Shown in pieces: positions 2,770 to 21,600 of a DNA stretch of 42,580 nt. Made by a program: the position numbers and the translations under genes. Where the stretch lies: the IMG/VR virus record IMGVR_UViG_3300006332_000004, positions 1 through 42,580 of that record. One strand, given 5' to 3'. The number at the start of each line of letters is the position of its first letter. Within the stretch, counting starts at the first letter, position 1. The notes beneath the pieces are model-generated. The model had not been told where the DNA came from and did not search any database. It was given only the letters and a program-made list of their open reading frames with translations. This stretch comes from a virus.

Positions 2770-2791
2770 AAGAGGGTTTGTCAACCCTCTT
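2770..2791 (-). terminator. Rho-independent terminator of small-gene/oxygenase operon
   Basis: Perfect nine-base stem AAGAGGGTT/AACCCTCTT with four-base loop GACA, followed on the minus strand by TTTTTATG. It begins six bases after the stop of the 64-residue gene (2797). The loop and stem edge contain TTGACA. Confidence 0.85.
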
Positions 2792-2796
2792 AACAT

Positions 2797-2991
2797 TTAT
2801 ACATATTGGTCGTTAAGATGCAAGACTTCCACAATCTCACTTATCGTACCCATACTCTCGTCATACTCTTGTTGAGTAATCCTCTTTGTCTTATAGTATT
2901 TCCTTTGTACATCAGAGACATACTTGAAGATACATTGCCTAAGCACTTCTTTTTGCATTTTATTTAAAATGGCAGTCTTTAAAAATGTCAC
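2797..2991 (-). CDS. Small hypothetical protein, GTG start
   Basis: This 64-residue protein has no family I recognise. The GTG at 2989-2991 immediately follows the TAA of the upstream gene. It is preferred because GGAGA lies five bases upstream, whereas the internal ATG (residue 12) has no clear ribosome binding site. The sequence is helical with mixed charge (KMQKEVLRQCIFKYVSDVQR). It is the last gene before the terminator at 2770-2791. Confidence 0.6.
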   Translation of the reverse strand: MTFLKTAILNKMQKEVLRQCIFKYVSDVQRKYYKTKRITQQEYDESMGTISEIVEVLHLNDQYV

Positions 2992-3186
2992 TTATCTCCG
3001 TAGGGTAGTAAGATAATCTAATACATGTGCCCTTACATCCATTAGTTCATTAAAGCACTTTTGGTTATGAGCACAACCACGCAAGTGGTTATCTGGTTTA
3101 TGGACTGACTCTATGTATAGGTCAAGTCCACGATTCCATTTTTCATCAGGACTTTCATCCCCATGAATACTGTTTTGATCTTTCAT
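2992..3186 (-). CDS. Small hypothetical protein
   Basis: This 64-residue protein has a hydrophilic N-terminus (MKDQNSIHGDESPDEKWNRG) and a helical C-terminus. It has two cysteines in a CAHNQKC arrangement and two nearby histidines that could bind a metal, but the spacing matches no motif I know. Its ATG overlaps the TAA of the 31-residue gene upstream (TAATG), and its own stop abuts the next gene's GTG. Confidence 0.6.
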   Translation of the reverse strand: MKDQNSIHGDESPDEKWNRGLDLYIESVHKPDNHLRGCAHNQKCFNELMDVRAHVLDYLTTLRR

Positions 3187-3281
3187 TATTCCTGTGTGGT
3201 ATATTCAAGATCGTAGTCAATACAACCATCGTCATATTCTAGATCTTCATCTAGCATTTCTAGCATTTCTTCTTCATTCAT
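3186..3281 (-). CDS. 31-residue acidic protein
   Basis: The frame starts at ATG 3279-3281, reads MNEEEMLEMLDEDLEYDDGC and ends TTQE before TAA at 3186-3188. About half the residues are Asp or Glu. It overlaps the genes on both sides (upstream stop at 3274-3276, downstream ATG at 3184-3186), a coupling pattern typical of real small phage genes. The composition suggests a DNA mimic or a partner for a basic protein, which is speculation. Confidence 0.5.
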   Translation of the reverse strand: MNEEEMLEMLDEDLEYDDGCIDYDLEYTTQE

Positions 3282-3453
3282 AGTCTTTCACATCATAGGG
3301 TTGGTTTTTCGTTACTCTCTTTGTATTATGTGAATCTTTGTATTCCCATGAAGTGCTTTTGTTTGATGCACCTCTTTGACGCTTATCTCGGAGTGATTTA
3401 CCTGGAGAGGAATAACCCCTTTCAGCACCACCTCGTCTAAAAGTCTTGCCCAT
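3274..3453 (-). CDS. 59-residue basic protein
   Basis: The frame starts ATG 3451-3453 and reads MGKTFRRGGAERGYSSPGKS followed by an Arg/Lys-rich region, ending YDVKDYE before TGA at 3274-3276. It is strongly basic at the N-terminus and hydrophilic throughout. This composition and its overlap with the next gene favour this frame over the longer antisense-like frame at 3312-3539 in the same place. No known domain; it may bind nucleic acid. Confidence 0.6.
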   Translation of the reverse strand: MGKTFRRGGAERGYSSPGKSLRDKRQRGASNKSTSWEYKDSHNTKRVTKNQPYDVKDYE

Positions 3454-3495
3454 TGTTTAGTTGGAATTAATGCGTAACTACTGAATGTATATATG

Positions 3496-3735
3496 CTAGT
3501 TGTTTGTCTCAAGTGACCGTATAGGTGATACTTTATCACTTATAAGTTCTTCATAGTCATGGAAGTTATAATCTTGATAGTTATCAGGCATTTTAATGCT
3601 CAATTCATCAAAGACGAAACCAACACCCTGTAAGAAATCTGAGGTCTTATCAACCACATCCACTAGATAATTACTATCAAATTGTTTCTCTGATACAGTA
3701 CCATCTGAATCAATACACGTTAAAGTAAATTTCAT
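3496..3735 (-). CDS. Hypothetical protein, 79 aa
   Basis: An acidic 79-residue protein starting MKFTLTCIDSDGTVSEKQFD, with alternating hydrophobic strands followed by a helix (YLVDVVDKTSDFLQGVGF). It looks like a small folded alpha/beta protein. I do not recognise a family. It is separated from the oxygenase gene upstream by about 70 bases and followed by the 59-residue basic gene. Confidence 0.6.
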   Translation of the reverse strand: MKFTLTCIDSDGTVSEKQFDSNYLVDVVDKTSDFLQGVGFVFDELSIKMPDNYQDYNFHDYEELISDKVSPIRSLETNN

Positions 3736-3804: not shown

Positions 3805-4446
3805 TCACTGTCCATCAGGATCATAAGCATAATGTGATCTAATACCATCTTTTAGAACATAATGGAAAAACATATTATGATGATATGATCCAGCAGGTGA
3901 CTCAGGAAAGAATGGTCGCCAATGTATTCTCTCAGTTCCTTTATATACAATACAATCACCAACATCTTGATATAATAAATGATCATTCCCATCACCATCT
4001 TCAATACCAAATGCCCATGGTTCTTTTAAATTAGATGATATATGTATTGAACATGATATTTCACAAGCATCTCTATCAGCATGAGGTGCTAAAAAAGATC
4101 CATTATAATAATACCTATCAAACCAATAACTATTATATAATTGTTTACCTATTTCTTTTTGAATACGTTGTTTAACTTTTAGATATGCTCTTGCGAATAT
4201 AGGAAAACTACGTCTTGAATGTCTGGTACCACGTATATCATCTACTCCTCCTTCTTCTCTTGATATTACATTACCATTTGAATGATCGTAGTAACCATAT
4301 CCTTCTGGTATCTCTTTATTAAAAGGACTTACATCTACAATATTCTTTATAACAAAGAAACCATCTCTATCAAATATATTATGATTAGTACGTGAAGTAT
4401 TTTTTATATCTTCAACTATTGATCTTAAATGATTTTCAACTTGCAT
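3805..4446 (-). CDS. 2OG-Fe(II) oxygenase
   Basis: A 213-residue double-stranded beta-helix dioxygenase. The iron ligands appear to be H122-x-D124 (in PHADRD) and a distal His near 175 (ERIHWRPF). It should couple oxidation of 2-oxoglutarate to hydroxylation of an unknown substrate. The N-terminal third (DGFFVIKNIV) is the usual entry strand/helix of prolyl-hydroxylase-like enzymes. Its ATG overlaps the end of the preceding oxygenase gene by 11 bases, so three oxygenases are made from one message. Substrate candidates include virion proteins such as the glycine-rich adhesin upstream. Confidence 0.75.
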   Translation of the reverse strand: MQVENHLRSIVEDIKNTSRTNHNIFDRDGFFVIKNIVDVSPFNKEIPEGYGYYDHSNGNVISREEGGVDDIRGTRHSRRSFPIFARAYLKVKQRIQKEIGKQLYNSYWFDRYYYNGSFLAPHADRDACEISCSIHISSNLKEPWAFGIEDGDGNDHLLYQDVGDCIVYKGTERIHWRPFFPESPAGSYHHNMFFHYVLKDGIRSHYAYDPDGQ

Positions 4447-5038
4447 AATTAAGTACCTCTATATTAAAAGAAATGGTAATCCGTGGATAAGTTGAAGGTT
4501 TACTTGGTCTTACTTCATGTGAAAGATATGATGGAAACATAATAAGATCTCCTTCTTCATATTTCAAATTAACTTTATCATTATATCCATTTGATTTCAT
4601 TTCTAATGAAAGTGCTCTTGTAGTTATTAATGGATCAATAAAAGTTACAGGAGTATGTATATCAGGATCAAATGAGAGAAAATGAATACATGCAAAATGT
4701 ATTGGTGATCCAATAGTTCCTGTATGTGTATGTTCTTCTTGCCATTCACCACCAGTATAAACATTATACCACATTTGACTCACATTAATATTAAATGTGT
4801 CATCAAAGAAATTATTTAATACTGCTTGATACTGTTGTTGAGTTTCTTTAATTAAAAAATCATAACAATTAACTTCTCTATTATTATATGAGGTGTTAAT
4901 ATTGTTAGTTAACCATCCTTCAGGTGGTCTATTACTATGTTTTGTTTCTTCTATAAATGGTATAATATTATTTTTTAACTTATCATTATCTTCTACCTTT
5001 CCATGAAAGATAGAAATTGGAAATAATTCTTTTCTCAT
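4436..5038 (-). CDS. 2OG-Fe(II) oxygenase (TIGR02466-like)
   Basis: The start is taken at ATG 5036-5038, giving 200 residues from MRKELFPISIF. This ATG overlaps the upstream TGA (ATGA) and follows GGAG. A longer reading from a TTG at 5062 is possible but less likely. H103 and H105 (EEHTHTG), the distal H174 (FPSYLSHEV) and R186 fit the iron and 2-oxoglutarate ligands of the phage oxygenase family that ends in RISISFN-type strands. It is the middle gene of the three-oxygenase cluster. Confidence 0.78.
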   Translation of the reverse strand: MRKELFPISIFHGKVEDNDKLKNNIIPFIEETKHSNRPPEGWLTNNINTSYNNREVNCYDFLIKETQQQYQAVLNNFFDDTFNINVSQMWYNVYTGGEWQEEHTHTGTIGSPIHFACIHFLSFDPDIHTPVTFIDPLITTRALSLEMKSNGYNDKVNLKYEEGDLIMFPSYLSHEVRPSKPSTYPRITISFNIEVLNYAS

Positions 5039-5646
5039 CTCCAACGAGGACCAGATACCCAACCAACCAATGCTTCTCTCTGCCCTTTAGTTATTTTAGT
5101 AACTCTGTGTCTATACCTAGAATCAAATATGAATAAAGTACCTTTTGTTCTTGGTGCAACAGTTTTTTTAATACCATCTTCGGTTTGTATTTCAAAATTA
5201 CCTCCTTCATAATCATATGGATCACTCAACTGAAATGAAAATGATAACTTCCTTGTCTTTTCTGCTTTTGATAATACATAATCAGCACCAGCATCCCCAG
5301 TATTTCCTTTACTCCACGTTTCTAAAGAAGTATCAGTATGCCATCTATAATGACCATCTAATCCATAATGAGTATATTGAATAGCATCATATTCAACACC
5401 TTCTATATCATATTTAAAATTATCTCTATTTGCTTTTAGAACATAAGAATATATAAAACCACCTATCCATGAAGTTGATGGTATCCATGAGGTTTCTGAT
5501 TTTCTTATATGCTCTGGTGCAGTTTCTTGAAGCATACCTACCTTTGAATGTTCCAAAGGATCCATATTATTTTTACAATCAGATATTACCTGATCAATTA
5601 CCATATCAGGTAAACCAGTATGGTACCATACTATAGTATCTGCCAT
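5035..5646 (-). CDS. PKHD-type prolyl-4-hydroxylase-like dioxygenase
   Basis: 203 residues from ATG 5644-5646. The TTG just before it is unlikely as a start because the ATG is better placed. The iron triad is H103-x-D105 with H180 (DSRYRHRV), and R190 would bind the 2-oxoglutarate carboxylate. The segment YEGGNFEI (147-154) is typical of PKHD/prolyl-4-hydroxylase enzymes. It is the first gene after the perfect consensus promoter at 5670-5698, so the three oxygenases are probably early or constitutive genes. It may hydroxylate prolines of phage or host proteins. Confidence 0.85.
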   Translation of the reverse strand: MADTIVWYHTGLPDMVIDQVISDCKNNMDPLEHSKVGMLQETAPEHIRKSETSWIPSTSWIGGFIYSYVLKANRDNFKYDIEGVEYDAIQYTHYGLDGHYRWHTDTSLETWSKGNTGDAGADYVLSKAEKTRKLSFSFQLSDPYDYEGGNFEIQTEDGIKKTVAPRTKGTLFIFDSRYRHRVTKITKGQREALVGWVSGPRWR

Positions 5647-5669
5647 CAATACACCACTAATTATATTAT

Positions 5670-5698
5670 ATTATATATTACTTCTACTTGATTGTCAA
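5670..5698 (-). promoter_or_regulatory. Perfect sigma-70 promoter TTGACA-N17-TATAAT
   Basis: On the minus strand TTGACA is at 5698-5693 and TATAAT at 5675-5670, with exactly 17 bases between. Transcription should start near 5663, about 17 bases before the oxygenase ATG. The -35 box lies next to the stop codon (5699-5701) of the glycine-rich protein gene. It should be recognised by the host primary sigma factor. Confidence 0.85.
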
Positions 5699-6577
5699 TT
5701 ATAAAGGTTGTATCCACTCAACTCGTGCGTAAGTACTACCATTACTTGATCCACCTGAAACATTTTGCATACTTAGATTACTTCCATGATATCCAGGAGC
5801 ATTACCATTTGGGAGACCTCCAGCGTAACCTGATCCACCGCCTCCGCCTCCAGGTTGACCATTGTTTCTTCCAGGTGACCAACCGCCACCTCCTCCACCA
5901 CCTCCGTAGTATCCATATCCTCCAGGAGATGTTCCTCGCCACTCTGTAAACCAAAATGTTCCTCCACTACCGTATGTTAAAAAACCTCCAGCATATGCGT
6001 TAGCACCAGGTCCAGGATAATATTGACCATGTTGTCCACCTTGACCAGATTGGTAACTCCAAGTTGTGCCTCCACAACCTCCACCGCCACCGCCCCAACC
6101 TTGGCGACCTCCACAGTTTCCACCACCACCACCTCTACCACCTTGAGGGTATCCACCAGGACCAGGACCACCACCAGAATGTGATGGTGCTCTAAGACCT
6201 GCCATCATAAACATTCTTGGAGTATAACTAGGAATACTATTTGGAGTTTGTCCAGTAGTCATTGCTGAACATGCCCAACCACTAGCACCTTGTCCTTGTC
6301 GCTGATAAGTAAATCTATCACCAACTCTAATTACAAACTCACCAACAGTATAACCATTATCAGATTCCATTCTTAGTCGTAATAATGCCTCACCACCAGA
6401 ACTACCTGTAACTACAATATTATTAGTCCAACTATAAGTATCCCAGTTTGTAGTATTAAAATCTAATACATTACCATTCCAATTAAGTTGTATATCAGGA
6501 GTAAGGTCTCTGGTGGGTCCACCAAAACCTCTCATCCTTGCTTGTCCACCGTGTGATAATTGAGAGAAAAATGACAT
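5699..6577 (-). CDS. Glycine-rich tail-fibre adhesin
   Basis: A 292-residue protein with two parts. Residues 1-125 are a compact beta domain (RMRGFGGPTRDLTPDIQLNW...). Residues 130-270 are dominated by glycine blocks (GGGPGPGGYPQGGRGGGGGN and several G6-G8 runs) interspersed with Trp, Tyr, Asn and Pro. Polyglycine-II bundles of this kind form the receptor-binding tips of T-even-like gp38 adhesins, so host recognition at the fibre tip is the likely role. It ends with a short beta tail. It lies at the end of a fibre operon just before the hydroxylase cluster. The family assignment is by composition, not by homology. Confidence 0.65.
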   Translation of the reverse strand: MSFFSQLSHGGQARMRGFGGPTRDLTPDIQLNWNGNVLDFNTTNWDTYSWTNNIVVTGSSGGEALLRLRMESDNGYTVGEFVIRVGDRFTYQRQGQGASGWACSAMTTGQTPNSIPSYTPRMFMMAGLRAPSHSGGGPGPGGYPQGGRGGGGGNCGGRQGWGGGGGGCGGTTWSYQSGQGGQHGQYYPGPGANAYAGGFLTYGSGGTFWFTEWRGTSPGGYGYYGGGGGGGGWSPGRNNGQPGGGGGGSGYAGGLPNGNAPGYHGSNLSMQNVSGGSSNGSTYARVEWIQPL

Positions 6578-15998: not shown

Positions 15999-16146
15999 TT
16001 TTATTTTCTTGTTTTATATCATACTCGATAGTAATCTTTTTAGATGTTCTACCAGTACTATCATATGTAGTAGATGTTGTTAGGGTTCCACCAAGTAATA
16101 CAGTTAACCCTTCAATCTCAGACACTAAGTCAGTTGTTTTAGTCAT
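15991..16146 (-). CDS. 51-residue hypothetical
   Basis: It starts ATG 16144-16146 (overlapping the TGA of the oxygenase gene) with MTKTTDLVSEIEGLTVLLGG, and ends KQENKNG before TAG. It reads as a short helix followed by a Thr-rich beta strand and a charged tail. It overlaps both neighbours, so it is part of the PyrE/oxygenase operon. Function unknown. Confidence 0.5.
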   Translation of the reverse strand: MTKTTDLVSEIEGLTVLLGGTLTTSTTYDSTGRTSKKITIEYDIKQENKNG

Positions 16147-16865
16147 GCTCTATCAAAATTAATGTTAAATGCTAAACTTACCCTATCTTCTTTTGTTTCA
16201 TTAGTTGTTACACCATGATCTAAGTAAGCAGGGAATAATACCATTTTACCCACTTCTGCTAACATACTTTGCTTAAATGCATAATGAGCATAAACAAATG
16301 ATGTTACTGAAGAAGGTGCAGGTGAACTAAAATATATATTTCCTTCTGGTTGAGTACCCCAAGGAGTGTCAAAAGATGCTATCTCTTCACTAGATGGTGC
16401 TTTGAAATAGTACACTCCAGATACATCACTATTACCATGATTATGTACATGAGCATAATCTCTATGTCCAAATTTAGACCACCAAGATTGTGAGATTGTA
16501 TATTTTACATCCTCTATTTTAGTCTTACTACTCCTACCTCCATCCTGGGGAAATTTTATCCCTGTCATGTAATTACAAAGATGAAAATGGATTACTTGTT
16601 CAAATTCTTTTAATCCATGTTCAACTATAACATTACCAGAAAAAGTAGTATCTGACAACTGATGTGTCATCCCAAACTCTTCTTTATATGTAAAAGTAGT
16701 CTTTCTATAAGATCTACTGAGTTCTGTCTGAATTGCATCAAGATTATCTTTAATCCTAGTTGCGTATATCGGTGTCGAAAACGCATGGAACATTGTTCCA
16801 CTAGGAAATTGTGCTACCGTTGAGGCTAGCATATTATCTTGATAATACTCAGGAACTTCACTCAT
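16143..16865 (-). CDS. 2OG-Fe(II) oxygenase (TIGR02466-like)
   Basis: 240 residues from ATG 16863-16865; the TTG six bases further upstream gives a two-residue longer form. The block YAHVHNHGNSDVSGVYYF (137-154) with H139, H141, H143 and D147, the distal H217 in FPAYLDHGV and R228 match the TIGR02466 putative oxygenase pattern. Double-stranded beta-helix strands alternate in the C-terminal half. It should hydroxylate an unknown substrate using 2-oxoglutarate and O2. It overlaps the 62-residue gene upstream by eight bases. Confidence 0.8.
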   Translation of the reverse strand: MSEVPEYYQDNMLASTVAQFPSGTMFHAFSTPIYATRIKDNLDAIQTELSRSYRKTTFTYKEEFGMTHQLSDTTFSGNVIVEHGLKEFEQVIHFHLCNYMTGIKFPQDGGRSSKTKIEDVKYTISQSWWSKFGHRDYAHVHNHGNSDVSGVYYFKAPSSEEIASFDTPWGTQPEGNIYFSSPAPSSVTSFVYAHYAFKQSMLAEVGKMVLFPAYLDHGVTTNETKEDRVSLAFNINFDRA

Positions 16866-17046
16866 CTTCAACTCTCAAATGATCTTTAATACTATCAACT
16901 AGTATAAGATTATCTATCTGCATCATCATATCAGCAATATGCTTACTAATATATGATTCTTCATTACGAGCAGAATACGCAAGTGCATTCTTCAGATTTA
17001 GTTGTGCTTCTCTAAGAGAATCTTCAACTTGTTGTGTCAGTGCCAT
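16858..17046 (-). CDS. Small helical protein, 62 aa
   Basis: MALTQQVEDSLREAQLNLKN and onward is a continuous amphipathic helical pattern, with a dimeric-coil look up to about residue 55. It overlaps the gene on each side (upstream stop at 17024-17026, downstream ATG at 16863-16865). No function assignable. Confidence 0.62.
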   Translation of the reverse strand: MALTQQVEDSLREAQLNLKNALAYSARNEESYISKHIADMMMQIDNLILVDSIKDHLRVEDE

Positions 17047-17438: not shown

Positions 17439-17482
17439 TAGAGGGCGTTCCTTCTAATCGGAAATCTTTTGTACTCCCTCTA
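17439..17482 (-). repeat. Intergenic inverted repeat after oxygenase stop
   Basis: On the minus strand TAGAGGG, which begins with the oxygenase stop codon itself, pairs with CCCTCTA across about 30 bases. Inside, TTCC and GGAA can form a second stem. No T-run follows (CCTATATAAACC), so it is not a standard terminator. It could be a processing site, an mRNA-stabilising hairpin or an imperfect terminator. Confidence 0.4.
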
Positions 17483-18112
17483 TTTGTTAATTGCTTTGCC
17501 TATTGTAGCAGAATTAAAATCTATGTCAAGTGTCATGTTAAAAGAAACTGATATTCTTTCTTCATCTGTTTGATTACTTTCCACATTATGATCCTGACAT
17601 GATGGAAAAATAATGCATTGTCCTATTGTAGGTTCAAATGTAAATTGGTCCCATAGATTATTAGAAGTTTTAAAATTGTCACTATAACATACACTTTCTT
17701 GAAATCTTGAATAGTTGTTAGAATCATCAAATACTAAAGAACCTATATTTGGACCAGATCCCTTAACCCAAAATACTCCAGACAAATCAGAATTAGGATG
17801 ATTATGTTTCATATTATAACAGTTAGTACCATTTATATTAATCCACATTGCACCAACTTCCATTTGAGTTCCTTTCTGAAGGATATCACCTTCAGACCAT
17901 TTATTTAATCCCTTCATAAGAGTTCTACTTAAGATATTATCAAACCTAGAATAATGATCTTGAGATTGCCACCCTCCTCTATTAGATTTTTGTTTTCCTT
18001 CTGGGTCTATCCTTTGTTCACCATAACAATACTTCTCTATAGCATCTGCATCAAAATCAGGAATATCAAACTGATGAATCAGCATTGGGAAAAGTGTTAT
18101 AAGATTACTCAT
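17480..18112 (-). CDS. 2OG-Fe(II) oxygenase (TIGR02466-like)
   Basis: 210 residues. MKHNHPNSDLSGVFWVKGSG (101-120) contains H103, H105 and D109, the family's iron-ligand block. The distal H175 (FPSCQDHNV) and R186 complete the set, followed by the RISVSFNM strand. It is the second member of this family in the region after the 16.1-16.9 kb gene, with clear sequence parallels (NSDxSGV, DH-V-SN/TN-T-E-R-S). It overlaps the end of the upstream 42-residue basic gene by eight bases and is probably transcribed from the perfect promoter at 18256-18284. Confidence 0.82.
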   Translation of the reverse strand: MSNLITLFPMLIHQFDIPDFDADAIEKYCYGEQRIDPEGKQKSNRGGWQSQDHYSRFDNILSRTLMKGLNKWSEGDILQKGTQMEVGAMWININGTNCYNMKHNHPNSDLSGVFWVKGSGPNIGSLVFDDSNNYSRFQESVCYSDNFKTSNNLWDQFTFEPTIGQCIIFPSCQDHNVESNQTDEERISVSFNMTLDIDFNSATIGKAINK

Positions 18113-18233
18113 TATAAAGTTTCTTCACGAATAATTTTGTACGTTTCTTTAATTGTCGTAAGCGAGCAGACGCTAGACGGGATTTGGTGTTGCGTCCTCG
18201 CTTTCTAGGAGTTTCATGGCTTTTAAGACGCAT
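18105..18233 (-). CDS. 42-residue Arg/Lys-rich protein
   Basis: It starts ATG 18231-18233 with MRLKSHETPRKRGRNTKSRL and continues ASARLRQLKKRTKLFVKKLYNE. About 40% of residues are Arg or Lys, so the predicted isoelectric point is very high. It is the first gene after the perfect sigma-70 promoter (18256-18284) and is coupled to the oxygenase. DNA, RNA or host-polymerase binding is plausible but unproven. Confidence 0.58.
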   Translation of the reverse strand: MRLKSHETPRKRGRNTKSRLASARLRQLKKRTKLFVKKLYNE

Positions 18234-18255: not shown

Positions 18256-18284
18256 ATTATAAGATATTTAGTTGGGATTGTCAA
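18256..18284 (-). promoter_or_regulatory. Perfect sigma-70 promoter TTGACA-N17-TATAAT
   Basis: On the minus strand TTGACA is at 18284-18279 and TATAAT at 18261-18256, spaced by exactly 17 bases. It overlaps the last codons and stop of the 72-residue gene (18268) and starts transcription near 18249. Short arms GGATT and AATCC flank the -35 box. Confidence 0.85.
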
Positions 18285-18663: not shown

Positions 18664-21600
18664 TTAATTTAGGAAAATAGAGGTGGCAGTTTGAGAAATG
18701 GCACCTGCAACTGAATTTATACCAATAGCACCCTTTGCCTTAATGGTTGCTGGTCCAGTCTTAGACTCCATACGAATAAGTCCATCATGTGCCATTACAT
18801 TATAAGCACCTTCCATTACATTCAAATTAAATCCAGTTGAACCGCACTGCATAGAAACTGGTCCTGAAGGATTAGCAACTGTAAATCTAGGAACATTATC
18901 AGTTGTAGAACCACCAGGCATAAGAGCAAGATCTACAGAACCATGACATATTGTACTAATACCAGACTTAGTAGCAGCAGGATTCTTATTAATATTAATC
19001 TTCTGATACAAAGCAGTAGTAACCATTTCAATAGAATTATCAGCACTGATAATACACTCTACACCAGAATACTTCTGTAGTTTTGATGCATTTTCAAATT
19101 CTTTACCTGTAATAGATGTCTTAGTTGCTGCCATTCTTAAATTTGCTGCTTGCATTTCAAATGCAGCACCAGCAACATTCATATCAACGTCAGAACCAAA
19201 ACTAATAACATGCTTTTGAATTTCTTTATTCTTAGGATGTCCATGTTTACTAACAGATTTTGGAGCACCTTGAGCACTAAAGAAGAATCCTCCTCCAACT
19301 TCAATATGACAGTCACCTGTTACCTTTAACCTATAGTCACCCTGAACTGTTCTACAATAATCATTATCAATAACCTTTGCATCATCTCCATGCACTTCTT
19401 CAGTTTTAGTTCCAGCCCAACTAATATGGTCAGCAAGTAAATTACCCTCATCTCCATTAGCAGCAGTACTAGGATGATATCTAACTGGGAATGAATCGAG
19501 AGATGTTTTTACAACTGTTCCTGTAGGATCTTTTAATGTCCATGCAATAGCAGCAGGATTTCTTTCCCATCCAGAACCAGCATTTTCAGTATATACATTG
19601 GTTATACTACCTTTAATAGTATGTGTACCTGCTTGTACATTCTCTATAGTAAATGTAGATGTTACATTATGAGATTGGAACATTGATGTCTGACCTAGAG
19701 TTACTCCATCCCATGAAATACTACCTTGATTATCCGCTTGAACATCAAAAGTATATGTTCCCTCAACAGTAACAACTACTTCCCATGTACCAGTATGTGT
19801 TCCTAGTAATGCTGAAGTATTAGATGGATAAACACCATAAGTTTTTAAGAAGTCACTCCATAAACCTTGTACACCATCTGGTAAATTGTCAGCAGATCTA
19901 ACCCAAGCAGTCTGTGAAGACGTTGTTCTAGTTGATGCTGCAACTGCCTCTGCTGCTGCAATACTAACTTCATCCTCTGATAGATCTGGGAAGTCTTCTT
20001 TAATCTTTCTCTTAGCCATCCACTCTTGGTGCATAGCATTATTCAAACTTACTGAAGTATGTGTAGTACCATTCTCCCTCTTTATAATAGTTGCTTGACG
20101 ACCAGGTGTACCAACATACAATTCAAATGAACCATTAACTTGTGTCTTAGCAGTAGTTAAATAAGGATCTGCTTCAGAGAATACAGAATCAAATAGTCCA
20201 CCAGCAATAGTAGTAGACTCTCCACACTTACCTCTAGTCTCACCTCTAAGTACTGCTATGGAAGCAAATTCTTCAGGAGTACAATGAGTTACACCAAATA
20301 AAGGGAACCATCCAACATTATCTTCTCCACTTTTAGGTGGTCTAACACAACCAGATTCAGAAAACTCAACAAATAACTTTATTAGTCCAGTTAATGTATT
20401 AACGTCTTTAGTAAATAAATTAGTCTTCTCAGAGAATATCTTATTACCTGCTTTCCAGGTATCTAATACTTCTTTTGCATCTTGGTAATTAGCAACTACT
20501 TCTTCAGTTTGTGATACTACTGTAGTAAGATTATTCAATAACTTTTCAACATTACATATTACAATACTAATAACACCTTCAACACCCTGAGTAACAAACG
20601 TTGGTTTATCAATCAGACTACCTAAGTATGAATCTAAATTAGATGTTACAGTAGTTAATGGTGTATTAATAAAATCTGTTAGATTATTATCAATAGCACA
20701 TAGACTAGATAATATTTTACTAACTTCTGCCTGTACTGTAGTTTGTATTACATAAGGTGCTCCAGTTGACTTATTCAATAAAACAGACAACTCCAAATCA
20801 TCAATAAGAGTAGAGGTTGCTGTACGCATAGCACTAACAACTTGAGTGAATACAGTACCTAAGAAATTTTGTATCTTTGCAGTAAGTTCTGCATTTGTTA
20901 CAAGAGTTCCAGTAATAACATTTAAATATTGACCATCACCCGATTTAACTAACAAACCTGCTTGGTCTGCAAGATCTTCTATAAGATATGATAATGTATA
21001 ATCTAAACTCTTCCAAGGTCCACCAACACCATTAGCAGCAGGTATTGGTTTCTCAGGTTGTCTTGGTTTTTGAGGATTACCAGCACTACCATTAATACCT
21101 GGAGTCATACCAACATTAAGTGGTGACCCCTTACCTCCAATCTCTGTAGTTGTAGTTGCTGCAACTGTTGATACACTATTATTTTGCAATCCTGGTCTTC
21201 TAAAATTATCTGACCCAATACCATTAGGGTCTCCTGGTCTATTTGATGCAGGATTTATAGTTCCAGTACTACTTGCTTTCATACTTTCACCAGTGAAAGC
21301 AAATTCCTTTATCTGTCTTGATTCTGTAGCTTTATTAACACGCATAACACCAATTACTATTGGCATCTGTGCATCATCACCATCCATAAAGAATCCCATA
21401 ACAACTGCACCAGGTTGCAACTGTCCTGAAGATTCTCCTTGCCCATCATTACCAGCTTGAGATGTATGTTGTAATACTGTTGCCCAAGGAAGATGGTCTG
21501 TCTTTAGATCTGCTGTAGTACCACCACGAACATTAGTATAGTATCCAAGCACACGAACTCTAACCCTACCCAATTCCATAGGGTCTTCATTATCTTCAAC

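Follow-up and report, generated by a model that had tools for sequence, protein, structure and literature searches.

In this study, we analyzed the IMG/VR virus record IMGVR_UViG_3300006332_000004, positions 1 to 42,580 (hereafter the window; 42.6 kb, 36% guanine plus cytosine (GC)), whose genes match those of T4-like marine cyanophages, and focused on a promoter sequence preceding a cluster of predicted 2-oxoglutarate (2OG)-Fe(II) oxygenase genes on the minus strand (Table 1). Direct reading of positions 5698..5670 on this strand gave TTGACAATCAAGTAGAAGTAATATATAAT, which matches the sigma-70/SigA consensus at all 12 hexamer positions with a 17-bp spacer. A preliminary description of the locus had claimed that TTGACA, 17 bases and TATAAT stood exactly here in front of an oxygenase cluster, and both points were confirmed: the match on the minus strand is exact and the cluster lies directly downstream, with 23 nt between TATAAT and the likely ATG (5646) of its first gene, ox1. 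The element is therefore located on the coding strand, between genes and ahead of a non-virion gene, a 2OG-Fe(II) oxygenase. The 5' end near 5663 that had been predicted agrees with the usual distance of 6-8 nt below the -10 hexamer. Based on the comparisons below, it is very probable that this site is a functional host-type promoter for pre-late transcription of the oxygenase operon.

First, we counted the exact pattern on both strands of 13 complete cyanomyovirus genomes and two contigs (2.48 Mb), using the reversed pattern as a control. The exact pattern had 64 matches, compared with one for the control, in these 15 records, and in each record it appeared on one strand only. All 59 exact sites of the 13 complete genomes were on the forward strand as recorded, which bears most genes, and none on the reverse strand. 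Counting sites with at least 11 of 12 matches in six full genomes gave 21-29 per genome in the recorded forward orientation, compared with 1-6 in the opposite one. An alternative is that the 5670 site is a chance match in AT-rich DNA. The -10 hexamer is embedded in a TATAA repeat (TATATAATATAATATAATT) with three overlapping TATAAT copies, so that a matching -10 arises more readily here than on average, and the window has only 36% GC; in addition, a dinucleotide shuffle, which was run only at up to two mismatches, revealed a modest enrichment (22 sites vs 13.1 +/- 3.8, reached by 2/100 shuffles). However, only the first TATAAT copy has the 17-bp spacing to the -35 hexamer, and it is this correctly spaced copy that a related contig retains while the next one is broken. 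Moreover, two exact sites were seen in the window against approximately 0.02 expected from the control scaled to 42.6 kb, and the site recurs in related phages at the same gene and distance. A chance origin is thus very improbable; the comparative evidence settles this question in that the 5670 site is beyond chance, and by all sequence tests applied it is a real promoter. On the other hand, the suggestion that perfect hexamers are uncommon and hence special was not supported. Since the cyanomyovirus genomes carry 2-8 exact sites each, these are no rarity in the phage group, and the perfection of the match adds little meaning.

Second, we compared the regions upstream of orthologous oxygenase cassettes. 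In S-SM2 (36829) and Bellamy (47672), the orthologous cassette, an oxygenase plus 'ferrochelatase', follows an exact promoter with a 23-nt leader; S-RIM50 and ACG-2014g have an 11/12 site in this position. These phages are diverged, with protein identity of approximately 40% and unrelated spacers. The related contig (L001/L002) encodes an oxygenase with 79% identity, lacks ox2, and keeps both hexamers and their spacing; its first TATAAT copy is intact, and the second reads TACAAT. The promoter block differs from that of L001 at two positions in approximately 46 nt. As a stand-alone proof, this block conservation was rejected as too weak, the two phages being close, and recurrence in diverged phages is the stronger evidence. 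Several observations weigh against a functional host-type promoter here. The L001 conservation is only modestly significant, since four-fold synonymous divergence is itself low there (about 9-29%). In nine of the 13 phages with the orthologous oxygenase (S-SSM5, P-RSM4, S-CAM8, S-MS29, S-MbCM6, ACG-2014b, Syn1, S-RIM44 and Sf-CH11), the 140 nt upstream held no site scoring 11/12 or better, and therefore promoter and cassette are not inseparable. Finally, a weak late-like octamer, TATAATTA (7/8), was found at -19 and not at the usual -30. A search of viral contigs with the DNA pattern of the full promoter plus its AT tail returned no match, which implies that this exact sequence is not widespread.

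Third, we analyzed the class to which the site might belong. TTGACA/TATAAT is the recognition sequence of cyanobacterial group 1 sigma factors (PMC2758279), sigma-70-like motifs have been reported at early genes of S-PM2 and Syn9 (PMC2984593), and host-like promoters have been predicted by BPROM in 16 genomes (PMC3037559). Of the 90 sites scoring 11/12 or better that lie outside open reading frames (ORFs) in eight sequences, more than half (48/90) were 20-29 nt ahead of an ORF ATG, whereas opposite-strand controls in the same sequences gave no site at this distance. In S-SM2, such sites head gp55, the gp43 (DNA-polymerase) operon, talC, hli03, a sugar-epimerase operon and a helicase, as well as small-gene clusters and the oxygenase cassette; inspection by eye against the annotation revealed none directly ahead of a virion gene. 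Thus, the 5670 site looks like a further, fairly ordinary example of a known cyanomyovirus class of host-type promoters. The claim of host-type recognition is supported by the bias towards one strand, the length of the leader, the repeated occurrence ahead of orthologous cassettes and the lack of a late motif at approximately -30.

In the oxygenase operon itself (Table 1), two of the three genes that had been described as dioxygenases were supported by significant profile matches. The ox1 profile matched PiuC structures (3dkq, 9ghl and 9qn1), and the residues of its HxD...H motif (H103, D105, H180) and R190 were invariant. The third enzyme, ox3, is a likely dioxygenase that profile and structure tests did not confirm: H122-x-D124...H175 was invariant in a 13-member orthologue alignment, which suggests a 2OG-Fe(II)-like dioxygenase site, and comparisons against Pfam, the PDB and by hhalign gave no significant match to a known 2OG family. 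The structure model of ox3, from a two-sequence alignment, had a predicted local distance difference test (pLDDT) score of 31. The 'ferrochelatase' family, comprising ox3 and its orthologues in L030-L037, L039, L041 and L042, shows the HxD...H arrangement that 2OG-Fe(II) enzymes typically have, and its label may be wrong. The ATG of ox2 overlaps the ox1 stop codon and ox3 overlaps ox2 by 11 bp; these overlaps at starts and stops suggest translational coupling.

Table 1. Coordinates of the promoters, genes and terminator discussed in the text (positions of the window).
Feature	Position	Strand	Description
Exact sigma-70/SigA-type promoter	5670..5698	minus	-35 TTGACA 5698..5693; -10 TATAAT 5675..5670
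Predicted transcription start	5662..5664	minus	inferred from 6-8 nt below -10; leader ~16-18 nt
ox1	5035..5646	minus	2OG-Fe(II) oxygenase, PKHD/PiuC-type; orthologues T4-GC 412; PF13640, E 1.1e-12; phrog_61
ox2	4436..5038	minus	2OG-Fe(II) oxygenase (2OG-FeII_Oxy_5); PF13759, E 2.4e-12; phrog_81
ox3	3805..4446	minus	'ferrochelatase' in databases; phrog_2954; orthologues labelled T4-GC 615
Small ORFs ending the predicted unit	2797..3735	minus	3496-3735 (phrog_935); 2992-3186; 2797-2991 (phrog_712)
First strong intrinsic terminator below the promoter	2770..2791	minus	hairpin and T run; -13.1 kcal/mol, z -3.95
Second exact promoter in the window	18256..18284	minus	22 nt before a 42-amino-acid basic ORF (18233..18105)

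Other promoter types were also considered. No NATAAATA late motif was present at approximately -30 before ox1, whereas several virion genes of the window bear an ATAAATA-type motif at about this position. The statement that virion genes use this motif therefore held by position, but not by number, because the window total (13 vs 20) was not above chance. Since the distances to the ATG are similar, host-type and late promoters would yield leaders of comparable length. The region, TTGACAATC, lacks TGCTT and has no MotA box (TGCTTtA at -30) of a T4 middle promoter; cyanomyoviruses have been described as lacking alt, modA, modB, motA and asi, and the difference between their early and middle transcription as unclear (PMC2984593). 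A dual early/late promoter, in which the AT-rich -10 region at 5670 is read by gp55 too, has a precedent in the gp55 site reported within the -10 motif of S-PM2d psbA. Such an arrangement seems improbable here, as NATAAATA is missing at the place where it stands before several virion genes of the window, and the best octamer (7/8) is at -19. Promoter-early stem-loops (PeSLs) are reportedly cassettes of T4-like phages, said to have been described by Arbiol in 2010 and Comeau in 2014. A PeSL-like element at 5670 was rejected, with no stable hairpin at 5640-5715 (z +1.28), and the apparent hairpin at the S-SM2 counterpart of the site was not significant.

Under the preferred reading of a host-type, pre-late promoter, transcription would start near 5663 on the minus strand, directed by SigA/RpoD, the primary sigma factor, on unmodified cyanobacterial RNA polymerase. 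The transcript would have a leader of approximately 17 nt, followed by ox1, ox2, ox3 and the small ORFs, and would end at the hairpin 2791..2770. Hence an auxiliary-gene island among late virion genes would be transcribed early or middle, that is pre-late, without the late sigma factor gp55. Within this scheme, we infer actual initiation, SigA use, timing and transcript extent. RNA-seq of P-HM2 assigned auxiliary metabolic genes to the middle cluster alone (PMC5082946), and the main texts of published RNA-seq studies, searched for the timing of orthologous oxygenases, did not state it. The presence of the host-type class in S-SM2 before talC and hli, which are of the kind that P-HM2 expresses in its middle cluster, and before other genes supports pre-late expression but not specifically an immediate-early need.

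It had been proposed that the oxygenases are needed early, acting in host takeover from a strictly (immediate-)early promoter. It is quite possible, although not the more probable case, that the promoter is of this kind, as a near-perfect SigA consensus requires no phage factor and T4 early promoters resemble strong host promoters. However, an early need does not follow from the sequence: the same class heads talC, hli03, gp55 and the DNA-polymerase operon in S-SM2, auxiliary metabolic genes of P-HM2 are middle only, SigA-type promoters of Ma-LMM01 are found at both early and middle genes, and nothing blocks late read-through. Indeed, no terminator-like hairpin was found between the upstream fibre gene (5699-6577) and ox1, and late transcripts could therefore continue into the oxygenase operon. 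The operon might then be expressed mainly late by read-through, with the promoter as a minor pre-late supply; its position inside the virion block and the same-strand fibre genes, with the fibre stop just upstream of the -35 hexamer, are in line with this. We regard such a course as possible but less likely than not: the operon's own promoter is found again, with its layout unchanged, ahead of diverged cassettes, and it would be unnecessary if read-through sufficed.

The window contains a second exact promoter (Table 1), and the very basic ORF behind it overlaps the start of a phrog_81 2OG-Fe(II) oxygenase (17480-18112). A further phrog_81 oxygenase lies at 16143-16871, also on the minus strand, which gives the window four such oxygenases by profile match, with ox3 in addition. 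On the reverse strand of the related contig G001, an exact promoter at 20327 is upstream of a 496-amino-acid ORF whose start, by eye, resembles a flavin-dependent tryptophan halogenase (putative). That both exact promoters of the window head oxygenase islands is suggestive, with only two sites. The third, in G001, heads a putative tryptophan-halogenase-like gene. One may speculate, with considerable doubt, that cyanomyoviruses carry self-sufficient auxiliary-gene islands, in which oxygenase cassettes inserted among late virion genes either bring along a perfect host promoter with a fixed 22-23 nt leader or have one re-evolve in front of them. If true, new enzyme genes would gain pre-late expression wherever inserted.

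We also observed fused terminator-promoter elements at 2791-2756 and 1697-1657 (minus), each with a strong terminator hairpin whose loop region contains TTGACA; the -10 hexamer, 17 bp on, reads GATTAT (at 2756) and TATTAT, respectively. The 1697-1657 element is also present in G001 with its hairpin retained. At S-SM2 167151 and Bellamy 184228, an identical sequence, AGAGGAACCCTTGACAGGGTTCCTTTTTTACTATATAAT, is an exact promoter with its -35 hexamer within a terminator-like hairpin, located 26 nt before hli03 in S-SM2. TTGACA in a hairpin was rejected as a general cyanophage rule, most sites being without it; strong cases were the S-SM2/Bellamy hli-type site, S-MbCM6 166379 and the window elements at 1697 and 2791.

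For the many 2OG-Fe(II) oxygenases of marine cyanophages, having their own recurrent promoter points to a role that precedes the assembly of virions and is not part of producing them, and this finding may help to select experimental time points. It also offers a rule for finding host-driven units in uncultured cyanophages: exact hexamers, a 17-bp spacer, approximately 23 nt to the ATG and coding-strand bias.

Compared with known systems, the -10 hexamer at 5670 is almost as far from the ATG as NATAAATA is before several virion genes, which corresponds to the T4-type late promoter (TATAAATA, gp55), but its sequence differs and includes a -35 hexamer. PeSLs are resembled by the window elements 2791-2756 and 1697-1657, each a terminator hairpin plus promoter, whereas the 5670 site has no stem-loop. 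Early promoters of T4 are likewise close to consensus and are recognised by host sigma-70 without phage activators; in contrast with T4, cyanomyoviruses lack alt, modA and modB (PMC2984593). In our literature search, no description of a host-type promoter at this locus was found. The closest counterparts are the host-like early promoters of S-PM2 and Syn9, which likewise combine TTGACA/TATAAT with near-17 spacing before non-virion genes (PMC2984593, PMC3037559); what distinguishes the 5670 copy is its perfect consensus and its place at the head of a 2OG-Fe(II) oxygenase island within the block of virion genes.
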